Below, in pieces: positions 44,973 to 53,808 of a DNA stretch of 64,000 bases. The notes under the pieces are model-generated. The model was not told where the DNA came from. It saw only the letters and a list, made by a program, of their open reading frames with translations, and did not search any database. Source of the DNA: Sulfurospirillum sp. Its GTDB lineage: Bacteria > Campylobacterota > Campylobacteria > Campylobacterales > Arcobacteraceae. Where the stretch lies: contig JAKZMJ010000001.1 in the NCBI GenBank assembly GCA_030491005.1, positions 62,001-126,000 on the forward strand, read 5' to 3'. The translations under genes were made by a program, and so were the position numbers. The first letter of the stretch is position 1; every line of letters begins with the position of its first letter.

Positions 44973-47900
44973 ATGAAAAAGCTTTCAATTTGTATAGATA
45001 TGGGTGCTAAAAATAATGGTATTTTTATAGTAAAAACAGAAAATAAAAAAATTGTTGATAGAGAAGCTTCTTATATTGTCATAGAAAATATAAATTTCTC
45101 AAAACTATCAAGACGATTAAATAGGCATAGAATTAGAAATAAGGATAGATTTAAATTAGCGAGACGACTATTAGGAGAGATGGTTGATTTAAATAAATAT
45201 AAACAAGATAGCGAAAAGAGGCAATTTCATCAAGAGCAGATAATAGGACTTTTACATAATCGTGGTTTGGATAGAGTTGAGGGTAAGTTTGAAAAGTTAG
45301 ATGATATAACAGTAGAATTTTTAAAAAATGAAATATTAGACATTAATAATATCTCTAATATTTCTAGTTTTGATAACTTTATAAATGAAGCTATATCCCC
45401 TGAAGAGTTAAAACAAGAATTAGTTAAGTATAGAGAATTTATAACTACTAAATACAAACAATTGAATTTGTTTATAAATAAAGATGCTATTTTAAATGAT
45501 TTAAATAGCATACTAAATAAAACAACAAAAAAATTTAAAACAACAAAAGAATCTAAATTATATATCAAAGATGTTTTATATAGATCAAAGATCAAATATA
45601 GTTATGAAAAAGATACTGAAATTAAAGAGTATTTTGTATCTACATTAAACGAAGGCGATATTATTGAGCAACTTAACAAAATAGAGTTAAATCCTGAAAC
45701 TATTAAATTTATTAACAATGAAATAAAAACAATTGTAAGTTTAAATTTTGACAAGCAATTTACAGAAAATATCGAAAAGCTGAAATATGATTTAAAACTA
45801 ACTAGTGATAAAGCTACAAATCCTAGTATAATAGGAATGATTGAAACAAGTATTAAAGGATTAGAAACAGGTGTAAAACCTAGAAAAATGTATCAAAAAG
45901 AGATGAGAAAAGATATAAAAGAATTTGATTTTATAGAGGAAAAAGATGAAGATGAACTTTTTAATATTATTGCAAATATATCAAATTTACAACTTCGAGT
46001 TTTAAGAAAATATTTTAATAATAAAAAAACTAGTGATACTAAAATAGATGAAAAGAAGTTATCTATAGTTATTCATAGGTATTTTATCTCAAAACATTAT
46101 AAAAGCCCTAACGAGAAACAACGAAAAGATGATTTATTTAAAAAAATAAATAAATATATAAATCTTGTCAAATTATCTAAAGAAAAGATGCCAAAAAAAG
46201 TTAAGAATTATAATAAGTATGATTTAAAAAAAGATAAATATGAAATATTGAATTTCTTTAAAAACTGTAATCCTGAATTTACTATACCACCATTTGAAGA
46301 TATGAATAATAGAGATACTTATAAATGTAATTCTTTGTTAATTAATCCTAAGAAAATAACAATTGGTTTAAAAAACTATATTAAAGATATTTTAAAACTA
46401 AAAGAGTTTAATGATTTATGTGATTTTGAACTAAATGATAACAAAAACTATGCTAAAGCACTTCAAAGAATACTAGACATAAACAGTAAAAATATAGATA
46501 AAAAAATATATCCACGAAATATATTTAAACATCAGAAAGATGATACGAATATAAAATATTATCAAAATATATCAAAAGAATATTTTGAAGAGTTTAGTAA
46601 CTTTGCAAAAGAGTTCTATAGTAAAGAGGAAAAAGCTATAAATGGTATATTTGATGATAAAGATATTAACTATATTTTTACGAAATGTAATAAAAATACA
46701 CAAGCAAAAAGAAACATAAAACATCAACTTATAAATACAATCTTTGCAACAAATTTTGAAAAAAAAGAGGATATGGATTCTCTTTTAGAAGAAATTAAAA
46801 ATTATAAAATACAAACAAAACTTGAAAAGATAAGTAATATATTAAAAAAATATCAAAATGAATTTTTTAAAAATCTTGTATATGTATATATTCTTAAAAA
46901 TACAGAAAATAAACAAGATGAATATGCAAATATAAATGATAATTTAAAAGATATATTGGAAGATGTAGATGATCTTTTAATAATTTTCAAAAAAATATTT
47001 AAAACTCTTAAACAAAATAGTTATTTGATTGATAGTTTTACTCTTAAATATGAGGTAACAATAAAAGCTAAAGATAGAGGAAACAAACTAAAAAGATTTG
47101 TTAATTCTCTAAAACAACTTTATGATATATTATATTTAGATGCTGGAGGACATAATAAAACTTGCTCTAAGTGTACCATAGAAAACAATACTAGAAGTGA
47201 TGAAGAAAAACCATTGGCAAAGCGACTTTTAAGTGATGTAGCAAAACCTATTAATGGTAAACTTGATATGTTCTTAAATAAAGTTGCGGGGGAGATTGTA
47301 AAACAAATAGATAAAAAGTTTTATAAAGATGTTGAAGTAATTGAAATATTATTAGAGCAAAATAAATTTAAATTTGAAAAAAGTTTACATGATTTAACTA
47401 TTAGAAAAAACAAGCCAAAAGAACAAGAACTAGATTATAATATATGTCCATATACGGGGGATGAATTTGATTATAAAAATGGAGAATACGACCATATTAT
47501 CTCACAATCAAGCTCAAAAAATACCAACAAACAAATTTATAATAGTGAAGCTAATCTTATCTTGTGTTCTGCTATTGGAAACAAAAATAAAGGTGATAAA
47601 CAATATACTTTTGATGATTTAAAAGAAAATCATCTTAAAATAATATTTGGAATCACCGATAAAAAAACTATAATAGAAAATATACAAGATATTTGGGATA
47701 AAAAAAATAGTGGTTTAAAATACTATACATCATTTAAAAATCTAAAATTTGAGGAACAAAGAGCACTTAGATATGCTTTGTTTTTTGATGTAAAAGATGA
47801 TTATTTTATAAAAGCAGAAGCACTTTTAAAACAAGAACAAAGAACAATGACAAATGGTACTCAAAAAAGATTAGCAAAACTTATCTTTGAAAAACTACCA

Positions 47901-49172
47901 CAAAAGTATAAAAAGAATGTTACAGTTAAAGTAATAGATGCTAAAGAGGTATCTACAACTAGACAAGAGTTATCAGAGTATTATTTGAAGTATGATAAAA
48001 AAACTGGAGAAGTATTAAAAGATATAATAAGCAAACAAGAGATACAAAACAATTTCAGTCATATTATAGATGCAATGGTGGTTTATTATATTGCTAATAA
48101 ATTAAAAATTGAAGATTTTGGAACACAAATATTAAAAGATTTTAAAACAGATGGCGATTACAAACAATCTGCTAAAACAAAACAATGGTATGAAACAGAA
48201 AATACAAAATATGATATAGCAAGTAAAAAATTATTTGATGAAAAAGATATAGGTGTAGGATATTTACAACTTAAAAAAGTGATTACGATAGATAAAAAAG
48301 AGAAAGAGAAAGTTACTTTTTTAAAAGGTGTAGTAGAAGATTCTTTTGTACCTACTTTATTTTCATTTAATATAAAAGATTTTGATTATTTTAAAAAGCA
48401 TCATATTTTAGAAGAAAAAAAGATAAATCGTAATAAAAAAATCATTATTGTATATGTAATAAATAAAGAAAACTATTATAATTTCTTGTTTGAAAATAAA
48501 GAAGGTGTTCTTGAAAATATTGTTCATTTCAATAGATTAACAAAAGAGTTAAGATATACATATACAAAATTTGACCCATTTGAAATTTTAGAAAAGTTTT
48601 TAGCTCCAAAAAATAAAGCTGATAAAGAAGCAGTAAATAAAATTATTAAAAAAGAGATACGAAGCAAAAACGATATTACTTATAAAAATTTAATGAGTTG
48701 GTTTTCAAGAAGTAGTAAACTAGAAAAAGGTAGTGCAAAGCTAGGTTATTATAAATCATGGGAAATATTCACTGAAATACTGATTTCTAATAAAAACGAA
48801 CTTTTTAAAGAATGTGAAAGAACAACAAAAGAAAATAAAAACTATAAAGTTATTGAAATAGATAAAGAAAAAGCACTTAAATATTGTCAAGATAAATTAT
48901 TTAAAACTACACATTTAAGAAGAAGAGATAAAAAAAGAAATGAATATAGACTTTATAGTGCATCAAAAAATGATACACAATATATACATAGAAGAAAAAT
49001 AAATGATAAATATATTTATCAAGTTAGAATTGCTAATGGACATAATAAATTATTAGGATTTGAAAAAAAACCAGTTTCCAAAGATGGGAGCATATTTTTT
49101 AAAGATTCTAAAAATATCGTTCCTTTAACAATGGATAATTATAGACTTGCTTTTGAAAAAAAGGAAAATTAA
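44973..49172 (+). CDS. cas9: Cas9, type II-B
   Basis: A 1399-residue RNA-guided endonuclease. RuvC-I is SICIDMGAKNNGIF with Asp9. The arginine-rich bridge helix is SRRLNRHRIRNKDRFKLARR (about 54-73). RuvC-II is VEVIEILLEQNKF (Glu791). HNH is GEYDHIISQSSSKN (Asp840-His841) with ANLILCSAIGNKNKG. RuvC-III is FSHIIDAMVVYY (His1030, Asp1033). All catalytic residues are present. Length, N-terminal style (IGLLHNRGL after the bridge helix) and the adjoining cas4 place it with Francisella and Wolinella Cas9. AAAAAGGTGA precedes the start. Strand-cutting residues are intact, so activity is likely. The PAM is unknown. Confidence 0.96.
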   Translation: MKKLSICIDMGAKNNGIFIVKTENKKIVDREASYIVIENINFSKLSRRLNRHRIRNKDRFKLARRLLGEMVDLNKYKQDSEKRQFHQEQIIGLLHNRGLDRVEGKFEKLDDITVEFLKNEILDINNISNISSFDNFINEAISPEELKQELVKYREFITTKYKQLNLFINKDAILNDLNSILNKTTKKFKTTKESKLYIKDVLYRSKIKYSYEKDTEIKEYFVSTLNEGDIIEQLNKIELNPETIKFINNEIKTIVSLNFDKQFTENIEKLKYDLKLTSDKATNPSIIGMIETSIKGLETGVKPRKMYQKEMRKDIKEFDFIEEKDEDELFNIIANISNLQLRVLRKYFNNKKTSDTKIDEKKLSIVIHRYFISKHYKSPNEKQRKDDLFKKINKYINLVKLSKEKMPKKVKNYNKYDLKKDKYEILNFFKNCNPEFTIPPFEDMNNRDTYKCNSLLINPKKITIGLKNYIKDILKLKEFNDLCDFELNDNKNYAKALQRILDINSKNIDKKIYPRNIFKHQKDDTNIKYYQNISKEYFEEFSNFAKEFYSKEEKAINGIFDDKDINYIFTKCNKNTQAKRNIKHQLINTIFATNFEKKEDMDSLLEEIKNYKIQTKLEKISNILKKYQNEFFKNLVYVYILKNTENKQDEYANINDNLKDILEDVDDLLIIFKKIFKTLKQNSYLIDSFTLKYEVTIKAKDRGNKLKRFVNSLKQLYDILYLDAGGHNKTCSKCTIENNTRSDEEKPLAKRLLSDVAKPINGKLDMFLNKVAGEIVKQIDKKFYKDVEVIEILLEQNKFKFEKSLHDLTIRKNKPKEQELDYNICPYTGDEFDYKNGEYDHIISQSSSKNTNKQIYNSEANLILCSAIGNKNKGDKQYTFDDLKENHLKIIFGITDKKTIIENIQDIWDKKNSGLKYYTSFKNLKFEEQRALRYALFFDVKDDYFIKAEALLKQEQRTMTNGTQKRLAKLIFEKLPQKYKKNVTVKVIDAKEVSTTRQELSEYYLKYDKKTGEVLKDIISKQEIQNNFSHIIDAMVVYYIANKLKIEDFGTQILKDFKTDGDYKQSAKTKQWYETENTKYDIASKKLFDEKDIGVGYLQLKKVITIDKKEKEKVTFLKGVVEDSFVPTLFSFNIKDFDYFKKHHILEEKKINRNKKIIIVYVINKENYYNFLFENKEGVLENIVHFNRLTKELRYTYTKFDPFEILEKFLAPKNKADKEAVNKIIKKEIRSKNDITYKNLMSWFSRSSKLEKGSAKLGYYKSWEIFTEILISNKNELFKECERTTKENKNYKVIEIDKEKALKYCQDKLFKTTHLRRRDKKRNEYRLYSASKNDTQYIHRRKINDKYIYQVRIANGHNKLLGFEKKPVSKDGSIFFKDSKNIVPLTMDNYRLAFEKKEN

Positions 49173-49173
49173 A

Positions 49174-49272
49174 ATGCAAAAAATAGACACAACATATCTA
49201 TTAAAATGCAATCTTGTCTTAAAAGAGCAAGTAGATGAACTTATAAAGGTTATAGATGCTTCTACGAACTAA
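49174..49272 (+). pseudogene. HEPT-domain N-terminal remnant
   Basis: A 32-codon frame starts 1 bp after the cas9 stop. It encodes MQKIDTTYLLKCNLVLKEQV and ends DASTN. The opening resembles the first helix of HEPT (nucleotidyltransferase substrate-binding) proteins, which usually begin with IDTTY and run to about 130 residues. The RxxxxxH RNase region is missing, so the toxin part is lost. The stop lies inside the MNT gene start. Confidence 0.5.
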
Positions 49273-49555
49273 AGATAAAGATAATATTCTTCATATATTT
49301 AAAAAAATATTTACTAATTCTATAGATATATGGGCTTATGGTAGTCGTGTAAATGGAGATGCTCATGATATGAGTGATTTGGATTTAGTTCTTGTATCAA
49401 CAAACAATAAAAAAATAGATATAAATAAATTTGTGAATTTTAAAAGCTCTTTAACTAATTCTAATATTCCTATATTAATACAAATATTAGATTGGAATAA
49501 AATACCTGAATATTTTAAAAAGAATATTTTAAATAACTATGAAAAATTAAATTGA
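49256..49555 (+). CDS. MNT-type minimal nucleotidyltransferase inside the cas operon
   Basis: A 99-residue MNT/Pol-beta-fold nucleotidyltransferase. YGSRVNGDAHDMSDLDLVLV gives the GS motif and DxD metal ligands, and IQILDWNKIPEYF gives the third acidic residue, so the active site looks complete. In HEPT-MNT modules this protein is the antitoxin that AMPylates the HEPT RNase. The partner is reduced to a 32-codon remnant. The gene overlaps that remnant by 17 bp, and its TGA overlaps the cas1 TTG, so it is translated within the cas operon. It is not a known core CRISPR gene. Confidence 0.85.
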   Translation: MLLRTKDKDNILHIFKKIFTNSIDIWAYGSRVNGDAHDMSDLDLVLVSTNNKKIDINKFVNFKSSLTNSNIPILIQILDWNKIPEYFKKNILNNYEKLN

Positions 49556-50517
49556 AACATATAATCGTAAATAATTATGGTATATTTTTGGGACTAAAGT
49601 CACAAAGATTAACTATCAAAAAAGAGGGTAAGGTTATAAGGGAAGTAGCTTTGAATAGATTAAAAACTATTCAAGTTCTAAGCCGTGGCATATCTCTATC
49701 AAGTGATTTGATAACAGCATGTAGCTATAGAGGTATAAAAATATTTTTTAATACTTTTAACTCTTTTTCTGATTTACATTCACTTTATGAACACAAGTCT
49801 GTGATGGTAAGAAAAAATCAATTTGATGTATGTGATAGTACAAAAGGTTTAGAATTAGCAAGACAACTAATAATTGGAAAACTTAAAAATCAAAGAGCAA
49901 CTTTACTTTACAGTAGTAGAAATATAAAAAATGAAAAAAAAGATAAAGTAATAGATAGTTTTGACAGGTCAATAAAGCAACTAAAAAATAAAAAAGATAT
50001 ATCAAAAGAATTTATCATGGGTGTAGAGGGCGTTAGTGCTAGTTTTTATTTTGAATATTTAAGAACTATGGACTTAGTTCCTGATACTTTTAAATATCGT
50101 ACAAAAAGATATAGCGAAGAGATAACAAATATAGCTTTAAATTATGGCTATGCAATACTTTTTAATTTTATATATAAGTCTTGTATTAATGCAGGGCTAG
50201 AACCATATTGTGGAGTGCTTCATAGTGTAAGAAGTGCAAAACCATCTTTAATACTTGATATTATGGAAGAATATAGAAGTTTTGTAGTAGATAGAAATAT
50301 CATAAAACTAAGAAGTAGATTAGCTAAAACAAATCCTGAAAATTTTGATAAAATCAAAAAAGATATAGCAAGTAATATTTTAAAAACATTATCAAAAAAA
50401 TATAAATATAAACATAAAAAATTAACTTTAGAGAGTATAATACAAAGACAAATGTATAAAATATCAGGCTATTTTTGTGAAAATAACAAATACAAATCTT
50501 ATATATTTAGGTGGTAA
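49552..50517 (+). CDS. cas1: Cas1 integrase
   Basis: A 321-residue spacer-integration nuclease. GVEGVSASFYFEYLRTM has the metal-binding Glu, GVLHSVRSAKPSLILDIME the His and Asp. RGISLSSDLITACSYRGIKI belongs to the N-terminal beta-domain. Start is TTG at 49552, overlapping the MNT stop by 4 bp. No ATG fits, since the product opens with KHIIVNNYGIFLG as in other type II Cas1. The operon includes cas2 and cas4, so this is the adaptation complex. Confidence 0.96.
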   Translation: MKHIIVNNYGIFLGLKSQRLTIKKEGKVIREVALNRLKTIQVLSRGISLSSDLITACSYRGIKIFFNTFNSFSDLHSLYEHKSVMVRKNQFDVCDSTKGLELARQLIIGKLKNQRATLLYSSRNIKNEKKDKVIDSFDRSIKQLKNKKDISKEFIMGVEGVSASFYFEYLRTMDLVPDTFKYRTKRYSEEITNIALNYGYAILFNFIYKSCINAGLEPYCGVLHSVRSAKPSLILDIMEEYRSFVVDRNIIKLRSRLAKTNPENFDKIKKDIASNILKTLSKKYKYKHKKLTLESIIQRQMYKISGYFCENNKYKSYIFRW

Positions 50518-50518
50518 A

Positions 50519-50806
50519 ATGTATAGTCAAATAATAGTAAGCTATGATATAAGTAATACAAAAAAAAGAAATAAATTTTTTGAAGAATTAAAAGACTTAG
50601 GACTTATATCTATTCAAAAATCAGTTTTTTGGGGATATGTACTTCTTAGTGAAAAAAGGATTATTAAAGAACTTTTTAAAAAATATTGTGAAATATATAC
50701 TGACAAAGCATTTATAGTCAATGTAACACTTGATAAAGATATAAATGATAGCTTTGGCTATGCCAAAGATAATTTCAAACATCCTGAAAGTTTTGAAATT
50801 ATATGA
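50519..50806 (+). CDS. cas2: Cas2
   Basis: A 95-residue ferredoxin-fold protein that bridges Cas1 dimers. It begins MYSQIIVSYDISNTKKRNKF, with the conserved Asp after beta-1, and continues GLISIQKSVFWGYV. The open frame extends to 50477, inside cas1. ATG 50519 behind AGGTGG is preferred because it gives the standard N-terminus and starts 1 bp after the cas1 stop. It overlaps cas4 by 4 bp. Confidence 0.95.
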   Translation: MYSQIIVSYDISNTKKRNKFFEELKDLGLISIQKSVFWGYVLLSEKRIIKELFKKYCEIYTDKAFIVNVTLDKDINDSFGYAKDNFKHPESFEII

Positions 50807-51375
50807 TTCCTATAAGTTTAATTAGACAATATATATTTTGTCCTCGTATCGTATATTATAATCTTCTTACAAATATCAAGCCCATTTATCCAAGGCAAGT
50901 AAGCTTAGGAAATGAATATCATACCTTACAAGATAGATTATCGAAAAATAGAAAATTTAAAAAATTAAATATAAAGTACGATGAATTTGTTTTAAATAAA
51001 TATATAGAAAATAAAGACTTAAATATATGTGGTATTGTTGATTTGGCATTTTTATCTAAAGATGAGGTAACTCCTATAGAGTTTAAATTTATTAATACAA
51101 AAAAACCATCTTATTCTCATATCTTGCAATTATATGCTTATGGACTTTTGTTAAGTAAAAAATATGAAAAAAATTTTAATCAAGCTATCATATCTTATTC
51201 AAATAATATGAAAATATTTAAAATAAATATAAACGATAAAATAAAAAATGATTTTTTAAAAGTATTAAAAGAAATAGAAAAAATAGTAAAAAACGATATT
51301 CTACCAAATAGTAGTGCTGATCAATATAAATGCTCTCAATGTGAGTATCTAAATTTTTGTGACGATAGATTCTAA
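50803..51375 (+). CDS. cas4: Cas4 nuclease
   Basis: A 190-residue RecB-like nuclease, the hallmark of type II-B. LIRQYIFCPRIVYY has the first Fe-S Cys, and CSQCEYLNFCDDRF near the C-terminus the other three. Nuclease motifs are ICGIVDLAFL (Asp), TPIEFKF (Glu-x-Lys) and HILQLYAYGLLL (QxxxY). It trims prespacers and helps select PAM-flanked DNA for Cas1-Cas2. It overlaps cas2 by 4 bp and is the last gene of the cas operon. Confidence 0.95.
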   Translation: MIPISLIRQYIFCPRIVYYNLLTNIKPIYPRQVSLGNEYHTLQDRLSKNRKFKKLNIKYDEFVLNKYIENKDLNICGIVDLAFLSKDEVTPIEFKFINTKKPSYSHILQLYAYGLLLSKKYEKNFNQAIISYSNNMKIFKININDKIKNDFLKVLKEIEKIVKNDILPNSSADQYKCSQCEYLNFCDDRF

Positions 51376-51390
51376 ATAAAAGTTTATTCG

Positions 51391-51420
51391 ATGGGTATGT
51401 CATCAGACAGATGACCCACT
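51391..51420 (+). other. Stem-loop after cas4
   Basis: Near 51392-51419, TGGG(TATG)TCATC pairs with GATGACCCA around an AGACA loop. It starts about 18 bp after the cas4 stop and has no T-tract on the plus strand. It may end or stabilise the cas mRNA. It could also be part of a small RNA, as scaRNA is encoded in this interval in Francisella. Confidence 0.45.
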
Positions 51421-51446
51421 TCATTTGTATTTAACAGGAAAACTTT

Positions 51447-51520
51447 AAAAAACCCTCCAAAATAAATTTTGGATAATGATTTCAACCAGAGGTAGCAAAG
51501 TAGATATAATTTGTTAGATT
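51447..51520 (-). ncRNA. tracrRNA
   Basis: Read leftward. The -10 TATACT (51532-51527) leads to a start near 51520. The anti-repeat (51517-51480) then pairs with the crRNA repeat: 23 consecutive bp (51495-51517), an internal loop of 9 against 7 nt, and 6 bp (51480-51485). A short linker follows, then a terminator hairpin CCAAAAT/ATTTTGG (51457-51472) and TTTTTT (51452-51447). The predicted RNA is about 70-75 nt. The position between cas4 and the array matches Francisella type II-B. The ends are predicted, not measured. Confidence 0.85.
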
Positions 51521-51526
51521 AAAAAA

Positions 51527-51532
51527 AGTATA
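51527..51532 (-). promoter_or_regulatory. Predicted -10 of tracrRNA
   Basis: TATACT on the minus strand, 7-8 bp before the anti-repeat, in a T-rich stretch. Confidence 0.5.
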
Positions 51533-51545
51533 TCATTTTTTCCAC

Positions 51546-51579
51546 AAAAAGTAAAGTTTTTAGACTTTTTTTACTTTAC
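51546..51579 (-). terminator. Predicted terminator of the crRNA array
   Basis: GTAAAGT (51551-51557) pairs with ACTTTAC (51573-51579). On the minus strand the stem is followed by TTTTT (51550-51546). It lies 58 bp beyond the left end of the array and just ahead of the tracrRNA promoter, so it would stop leftward crRNA transcription. Confidence 0.6.
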
Positions 51580-51637
51580 GAAAAAAACTAATTTTTAATA
51601 CTCTGTAAAGCCCTTAAAAGAGGGGTCTAATCTTGCT

Positions 51638-53190
51638 CTAACAAATTATATCTACTTTGCACTTAGTTTGAAACCCTATGGTAATATTCAAAGTAGAGCT
51701 TGTTTTTATCTAACAAATTATATCTACTTTGCACTTAGTTTGAAACCTAATTATGCAGTCGGAGATTGCCATTCCACTCGCCTAACAAATTATATCTACT
51801 TTGCACTTAGTTTGAAACTTGGGTGCACGGCATAGTCGTTTTGTGCATAAGTGCTAACAAATTATATCTACTTTGCACTTAGTTTGAAACACTAATTTTT
51901 TTCCTGAACGCAATAAAATTAGTTTCTAACAAATTATATCTACTTTGCACTTAGTTTGAAACACCAATTCTCTTAAAAACTCATCTACACTTTCACGCTA
52001 ACAAATTATATCTACTTTGCACTTAGTTTGAAACTGCCCAAGTGATGAACTCATAGCACTTTCTATACTTCTAACAAATTATATCTACTTTGCACTTAGT
52101 TTGAAACACTGGGAAACTATAGATTTTATCAAAAAAGCCCATACCTAACAAATTATATCTACTTTGCACTTAGTTTGAAACGCGGCCGCTGCTTTTGTAG
52201 CAAGTCCAAAGGCTATCTAACAAATTATATCTACTTTGCACTTAGTTTGAAACTATTTAACGATAGTGCAGAGGAAATTAAATCTATAACCTAACAAATT
52301 ATATCTACTTTGCACTTAGTTTGAAACATGAAGGCATCACTCGCAAATAATAGACCTGAAAGACTAACAAATTATATCTACTTTGCACTTAGTTTGAAAC
52401 GTAACGATAGATAAGTAAGTAGCATAAGTATAAGCTAACAAATTATATCTACTTTGCACTTAGTTTGAAACATAAGACTAGATATTAAAACTTCTAGGAA
52501 TTCATTCTAACAAATTATATCTACTTTGCACTTAGTTTGAAACTGTGATACTAGATTTTAAAGATGCTAGAGTTATCTAACAAATTATATCTACTTTGCA
52601 CTTAGTTTGAAACAAAGTTTTTAGATACTTATGACAAAGTCATTATACTAACAAATTATATCTACTTTGCACTTAGTTTGAAACAGATATAGTTTTAGTT
52701 CATCTTCATATTTTGGTCGCTAACAAATTATATCTACTTTGCACTTAGTTTGAAACAAAGTATATGAAAAAGCATTAAATAGAACTGTAAACTAACAAAT
52801 TATATCTACTTTGCACTTAGTTTGAAACCGAAACAAATCTTTAATTTCATTAACTTTTAAGAAACTAACAAATTATATCTACTTTGCACTTAGTTTGAAA
52901 CTCATCTCAACTAACATCTTTCCACTATCTTTATTTGCTAACAAATTATATCTACTTTGCACTTAGTTTGAAACCAAGGATGGGTAGGAGGAAAATCGAA
53001 GTTAGCGAACTAACAAATTATATCTACTTTGCACTTAGTTTGAAACTCTTTTTTTGTTTTATTTTTATACAACTTAGAAAACTAACAAATTATATCTACT
53101 TTGCACTTAGTTTGAAACATTTTAAGGCTATAGGAACAGTTAATTTTTTTTAACTAACAAATTATATCTACCTTGCACTTAGTTTGAAAC
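51638..53190 (-). CRISPR. Type II-B CRISPR array, 22 repeats, 21 spacers
   Basis: 22 direct repeats of 37 bp (plus strand begins CTAACAAATTATATC and ends TTAGTTTGAAAC) alternate with 21 unique spacers of 33-37 bp, mostly 35. 21 repeats are identical. The rightmost (53154-53190) has T to C at repeat position 19. The minus-strand form starts GTTTC, the crRNA orientation of Cas9 systems, and the anti-repeat agrees, so crRNAs are made leftward. The imperfect repeat marks the old end, and spacers are probably added on the left beside the tracrRNA gene. Each minus-strand repeat contains TATAAT 7 nt before the spacer. Confidence 0.97.
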
Positions 53191-53211
53191 TTTATGCAAG
53201 ATAAAGAATTG

Positions 53212-53808
53212 TTAATTTCTATTAATTACATTTTTTGATTCTTCTATTGGGATATACACATAAAGGTCAGAAATAAGCTCTCTAGCTATTTTAATGCCTT
53301 TTTGTTTATCCCAATAACAATTTTGAGTAATATACTCTAATGATGGCTGACTGTATCGTTTGGTATAAGAAACAAGATTCAATAAATTTTCATTAATAGA
53401 ATCTGATTTAGTTACAACATTTAATAATTCTAATGTATGTATATTATGATATTTTAAACAATATTCAAAACTATCAATACCTTCATAAATTAGTGCTTTA
53501 TCCCAAATATATAATGTATCATTATGTATTTTAAGTTCAAGATAAGCATGTGTTAAAATATGATGTTCTAACTTATTGACTTCCATTGTTAAGAAAAAAA
53601 GTTCATCAACAGTGAACTTTTTTTCTAAAGCAAAACCTTGAGTTGTTGTATTAAAAATAAAGCCTAAAGCCTCTAATGCTGAATGATTAAATAACTTTGT
53701 ATCACTTTTTAATCTTAAAGTTTTTTGTGACTTTATAATATCTGAAAGAAAGTTTTTTGAATCAATTACTTCTTTATCATTTGTTAATTTTACCTCTAAA
53801 TAATTCAT
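53212..53808 (-). CDS. Unrecognised protein upstream of the array
   Basis: A 198-residue soluble protein I do not recognise. It is helical by composition with no signal peptide or metal motif. Segments include KSQKTLRLKSDTKLF, VNKLEHHILTHAYLEL and YTKRYSQPSLEYITQNC. It ends 22 bp from the outermost repeat on the same strand as the crRNAs, with no terminator between. It may be co-transcribed with the array or simply be the flanking chromosomal gene. Confidence 0.6.
   Translation of the reverse strand: MNYLEVKLTNDKEVIDSKNFLSDIIKSQKTLRLKSDTKLFNHSALEALGFIFNTTTQGFALEKKFTVDELFFLTMEVNKLEHHILTHAYLELKIHNDTLYIWDKALIYEGIDSFEYCLKYHNIHTLELLNVVTKSDSINENLLNLVSYTKRYSQPSLEYITQNCYWDKQKGIKIARELISDLYVYIPIEESKNVINRN

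Follow-up and report, generated by a model that had tools for sequence, protein, structure and literature searches.

Promoters embedded in CRISPR repeats are already established for type II-C systems, namely those of Campylobacter jejuni and Neisseria meningitidis (PMC3656092, PMC4607530; Zhang 2013 cited there), and what is proposed as new here is a type II-B version of that arrangement. The sigma-70 promoters of C. jejuni take the form TGxTATAAT without a clear -35 box, and its repeats initiate transcription (Dugar 2013, PMC3656092), with the start at spacer position five (PMC3656092). Type II-B arrays are transcribed opposite to the cas operon, Francisella novicida included (PMC3936727), and II-B Cas9s use guides or form R-loops of ∼20–22 nt (PMC12231574, PMC10482872). 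The orientation assigned by software to II-B arrays is undetermined in over 70% of cases (PMC6737040), and a 2026 paper calls the transcription of these arrays “unclear” (PMC13187072). Pearson 2015 (PMC4607530) lists II-B repeats, printed in the opposite orientation, but its treatment of -10 boxes is confined to II-C and II-A. The sequence-only reading that this analysis follows up knew of no repeat promoters established for II-B; this agrees with our search, in which no such paper was found, and a prior mention is possible as coverage of the literature was incomplete.

The window (the whole 64,000-nt stretch of DNA analysed here) carries a complete type II-B system, comprising a Csx12-like Cas9, cas1, cas2 and cas4, and a tracrRNA gene beside the array. 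The features of the locus are as follows:

44973–49172, plus strand: cas9 (II-B, Csx12-like), 1399 aa, a divergent member
49552–50517, plus strand: cas1 (TIGR00287 above cut-off)
50519–50806, plus strand: cas2 (TIGR01573 above cut-off)
50803–51375, plus strand: cas4, the hallmark of II-B (TIGR00372 above cut-off)
51385–51520, minus strand: putative tracrRNA, with the anti-repeat followed by conserved stems; 3' end approximate
51527–51535, minus strand: extended -10 of the tracrRNA promoter, TGATATACT, an internal reference for the promoter type of the locus
51598–51637, minus strand: crRNA-3' (cas-proximal) flank, conserved across II-B loci
51638–53190, minus strand: CRISPR array, 22 repeats of 37 nt and 21 spacers of 33–37 nt, mostly 35
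53191–53211, minus strand: gap of only 21 nt separating the first repeat from the stop codon of the upstream gene
53212–53808, minus strand: 198-aa ORF of unknown family adjoining the array upstream, no NCBIfam match

The only NCBIfam match of cas9 was to TIGR03031 (E = 8e-34), at 117 bits versus a curated cut-off of 399 bits. The genes cas1, cas2 and cas4 are present without csn2, in a gene order common to relatives, and the presence of cas4 sets the locus apart from the three-gene operon of II-C, which lacks it. The anti-repeat (51517–51495) is a 23-nt exact complement of repeat positions 15–37. Its complementary strand also reads TATAAT (51505–51510, plus strand), a possible antisense promoter directed from the tracrRNA gene toward the array. 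Compared with relatives, the tracrRNA gene has an apparent mid-gene insertion (51480–51441, minus strand), whose hairpin and T run (CCAAAATTTATTTTGGAGGGTTTTTT) could terminate transcription prematurely. In many II-B loci the tracrRNA promoter is flanked by a conserved TTTTTCC...GTGGAAAAA element, ∼20–60 nt upstream of the tracrRNA start (51530–51580 in the window; likewise in loci L043, L048 and L051), which may be a regulator site or an acquisition leader element. A small MntA-like nucleotidyltransferase ORF, with a weak NCBIfam match to type VII antitoxins, lies between cas9 and cas1 (49256–49555, plus strand); the corresponding gap in locus L041 is only ∼50 nt. An Rfam search gave a single sub-threshold snoRNA match, which was taken as chance.

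Read from right to left (53190 to 51638), the array is convergent with the cas genes. On the minus strand the 37-nt repeat is GTTTCAAACTAAGTGCAAAGTAGATATAATTTGTTAG, and positions 25–30 are TATAAT in 22/22 copies, followed by TTGTTAG (7 nt) and then the spacer; the hexamer had been noticed at this place in every repeat by the sequence-only reading, and all 22 repeats agree. A G stands at -14 in all of them. The sole variant is the rightmost, crRNA-5'-most repeat, with the single change A19G, and the other 21 are identical. The repeats and hexamers are placed as follows:

53154–53190, minus strand: first (crRNA-5', presumed oldest) repeat, with mismatch A19G; -10 hexamer at 53166–53161 intact
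51645–51650, minus strand: -10 hexamer TATAAT of the last repeat, repeat positions 25–30
51717, 51789, 51861, 51933, 52005, 52078, 52152, 52224, 52298, 52371, 52442, 52514, 52584, 52655, 52727, 52799, 52872, 52945, 53017, 53089 and 53161, minus strand: hexamer ends in the other 21 repeats

Standard -10/+1 spacing would put the +1 at the final base of each repeat (e.g. 51638), ± 1–2 nt. A loose TTGACA/TATAAT scan picked up TTCAAA-16-TATAAT in all 22 repeats and no promoter-like site on the minus strand from the array to 53506. The TTCAAA at repeat positions 3–8 (4/6) was considered as a -35 box and set aside; it is probably not required, and it sits in the 5' half, where first repeats decay.

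One repeat by itself is not strong evidence, nor do its 22 copies constitute 22 independent observations. TATAAT arose somewhere in the repeat in 2.5% of dinucleotide-preserving shuffles (5.0% with both strands) and in 6.8% of mononucleotide shuffles; GNTATAAT (G-n-TATAAT) arose in 0.6% of dinucleotide shuffles. The hexamer in a single AT-rich repeat is weak evidence, and it is the comparative pattern that lifts the case above chance. Because the chance figure (2.5%) was modest, a comparative test across loci was made.

Type II-B loci were gathered using Cas9 as bait, rather than the repeat or the box. An alignment-based search of genome contigs yielded 15 loci (a single-protein query yielded no relative), and tblastn against plasmids gave nothing. 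Arrays were read from 18 II-B loci including the window, 17 from Campylobacterota and one from Oligoflexales (L069); the repeats of F. novicida, Sutterella and Legionella pneumophila were taken from a published table only (PMC4607530) and converted to the crRNA strand by reverse complementation. Almost every II-B repeat has a -10 hexamer, exact or near, in its 3' half, and always on the crRNA strand. Exact TATAAT occupies positions 25–30 in 11/18 loci, and three loci forming one genus-level group have TAGAAT at 20–25 preceded by TG-n, where n is A, G or C depending on the repeat. The remaining forms were TGC-TATAAA at 25–30 in Wolinella succinogenes (L037), TATACT at 24–29 in the Oligoflexales locus, TAAAGT at 27–32 in L038 and L039, and TATGAT at 26–31 in the Sutterella repeat. 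The G at -14 was kept in most II-B repeats, with the bases either side varying. The II-B system of F. novicida (FnCas9, tracrRNA, scaRNA) resembles that of the window in its cas9-cas1-cas2-cas4 genes and in a repeat box, TGG-TAAACT at 24–29, but the hexamer is weaker (4/6 matches), and no report of repeat promoters was found for F. novicida. The weaker boxes, i.e. those of L038, L039, W. succinogenes and F. novicida, are none of them individually significant. L. pneumophila shares the gene set, and its repeat is likewise 37 nt long and starts with GTTTCAG, but the published sequence contains no -10-like hexamer in the 3' half, so a leader promoter may be used there.

Repeats were scored with a textbook -10 matrix plus positions -15/-14. 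The crRNA strand scored higher than the antisense strand in 20/20 distinct II-B repeats. Furthermore, II-B repeats outscored those of 18 type I arrays from their phylum, even when the better strand of each type I repeat was used (p = 0.0017 on clusters at 70% identity; 1e-5 unclustered), with many of the II-B loci being related (7 clusters) and independent lineages therefore few. One of these type I arrays (L112, G000:C32, 15009–17508) is cas3-associated, lies in the same genome as the window, and has 39 repeats and no comparable -10-like box. The II-C repeats of the same phylum scored high in 16/16 cases, with the box at 31–36, and the genome of W. succinogenes holds both a II-B (L037) and a II-C (L126) array. 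Fragments of Cas9, covering only the first 23–122 residues, recur in several genomes (L041:16775–16843; L070:92–187; G381:C53:759–902; G127:C1:801949–802317), one such fragment lying past the crRNA-5' end of an array.

The first repeat of II-C arrays loses mostly its first 15 nt, and it has been suggested that this extra repeat must retain promoter function (Feussner 2025, PMC12080349). The crRNA-5' ends of the II-B arrays were searched with a criterion that treats both repeat halves alike. The 5' half was the more changed in 9 loci, against a single locus (L038) for the 3' half (sign test p = 0.011), while 5 loci were tied and 3 lay at contig edges or gaps. Changes in the 5' versus the 3' half numbered 11 vs 0 in L045, 6 vs 0 in L061, 11 vs 1 in L050 and 3 vs 0 in L040; the same script run on II-C as a control gave 5'-half decay in 11 vs 1. 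The last repeats, at the crRNA-3' end, are nearly intact in II-B. The pattern is imperfect: in L037 and L046 the hexamer of the decayed first unit is itself altered. The first repeat of the window has one mid-repeat mismatch, so this locus alone is uninformative on decay. The idea that the hexamer serves the tracrRNA gene, whose antisense strand also reads TATAAT, was rejected because the first-repeat pattern does not fit it. Outside the window, the same genome has a lone copy of the repeat (G000:C1:139410–139446; L009, 3411–3447) that keeps TATAAT and differs at positions 1 and 15 only, within the 5' half. A membrane-protein gene lies upstream of this copy and a transposase nearby; it may be what is left of a lost array, as its first repeat, or a small-RNA promoter.

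Flanks of 110 nt on each side of the arrays were compared, the crRNA-3' side being that between array and tracrRNA. The crRNA-3' flanks are conserved between II-B loci (median z 5.3, 68% of pairs above 4) and the crRNA-5' flanks are unrelated (median z 0.05, 0/45 pairs above 4). In the window, the 21-nt gap leaves no room for a conventional leader, and in several other II-B loci the closest upstream ORF is directed away from the array. The conserved crRNA-3' flank and unconserved crRNA-5' flank argue against a conserved upstream leader promoter. Array growth at the cas-proximal end would fit the conserved crRNA-3' flank together with the degenerate crRNA-5' repeats, and in the window the flank at 51598–51637 is the likely leader and acquisition end. 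A possible further role for this flank as array terminator is not claimed, given that the hairpin after the last repeat is no more stable than its shuffles (z 0.05) and that the promoter/terminator scan yielded no terminator.

In both the window and II-C arrays, an extended -10 lies in the 3' part of each repeat on the crRNA strand and the array converges with the cas genes; II-B loci also share with II-C a first repeat that decays in its 5' half and intact crRNA-3' repeats. Unlike II-C, the system has a II-B Cas9 and cas4, a 37-nt repeat and spacers of ∼35 nt; the hexamer typically lies at 25–30 (range 20–32) rather than at the terminal 31–36, the predicted start is at the repeat-spacer border rather than at about spacer position five, and the repeat promoters, proven in II-C, are predicted here.

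A sigma-70-type promoter in each II-B repeat, near the spacer, was the central proposal of the sequence-only reading. Comparative sequence evidence now speaks for it, namely conservation of the box among II-B repeats, the G at -14, the contrast with type I, the II-C-like decay and the lack of a conserved leader; initiation itself is a prediction. We put the probability that every repeat is an extended -10 sigma-70 promoter, starting near the last repeat base, at roughly four in five. The promoter would be of the G-n-TATAAT kind, the extended -10 used in Campylobacterota, for which no -35 is needed. RNA polymerase would start at about the last repeat base or the first spacer base and transcribe the spacer and the downstream repeat, with which tracrRNA would pair, and RNase III would make the 3' end. 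No cut in the upstream repeat would be needed for the 5' end. With the entire spacer lying downstream of the start, trimming of the 5' end to guide length would probably still be required, and the earlier suggestion that such initiation bypasses 5' processing is too strong: initiation at the border would leave a guide of 33–37 nt, versus the ∼20–22 nt of II-B Cas9s. The upstream RNase III cut would be bypassed, the trimming probably not. New units would enter at the cas-proximal (crRNA-3') end, beside the conserved flank. The oldest repeat would have no spacer before it, leaving its 5' half (the guide handle) free to decay, and its 3' half would be kept as the driver of the first spacer.

A rival account would have one long pre-crRNA made from upstream, by read-through from the gene that ends 21 nt before the array or by initiation within it; RNase III would cut this RNA on both sides, and the hexamer would be fixed only by pairing with tracrRNA. 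The upstream ORF shares the strand of the array and contains promoter-like matches (53556–53528), and a retained 3' half of the first repeat would also permit RNase III cleavage before the first spacer. The anti-repeat keeps the hexamer complement and pairs through it in every locus, which could contribute to conservation of the hexamer. Pairing, however, does not require TATAAT, and the hexamer and the G at -14 are retained although adjacent paired positions vary. Four loci (L043, L048, L050 and L062) have an anti-repeat altered opposite this G and a repeat that still carries it, a small, non-independent set that is suggestive only. The unconserved crRNA-5' flanks, and the upstream ORFs that in several loci are directed away from the array, also count against a long pre-crRNA, and we consider this account unlikely.

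Two other explanations deserve far less credence. Shuffling gives a functionless TATAAT in an AT-rich repeat of an AT-rich genome a chance of 2.5–7% per repeat, but recurrence in divergent II-B repeats, near the same position and with the same strand and spacing, makes coincidence very improbable, as does the failure of AT-rich type I repeats in this phylum, one of them in the same genome, to reach a comparable score. It is just as hard to credit that the hexamer is kept for spacer integration by Cas1-Cas2, through DNA bending or melting, rather than for transcription. The strongly conserved repeat ends do fit integration constraints; yet the oldest repeat, which is not the inferred integration site, keeps its 3' half and loses its 5' half, and the consensus, the G at -14 and the strand bias match sigma-70.

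With regard to repeat promoters beyond the window, we think it rather likely that the II-B arrays of Campylobacterota, and probably others (Oligoflexales, Sutterella, Francisella), combine a promoter in each repeat with reversed growth polarity and a start at the border, in an arrangement independent of, or ancestral to, that of II-C. If true, this would answer how II-B arrays are transcribed. Each spacer would have its own expression, with no bias to the 5' end of the array and less dependence on 5' processing. It would also explain the absent conserved upstream leader in these II-B arrays, and perhaps why software often fails to orient them. Lastly, the promoter-per-repeat arrangement would not be special to II-C.
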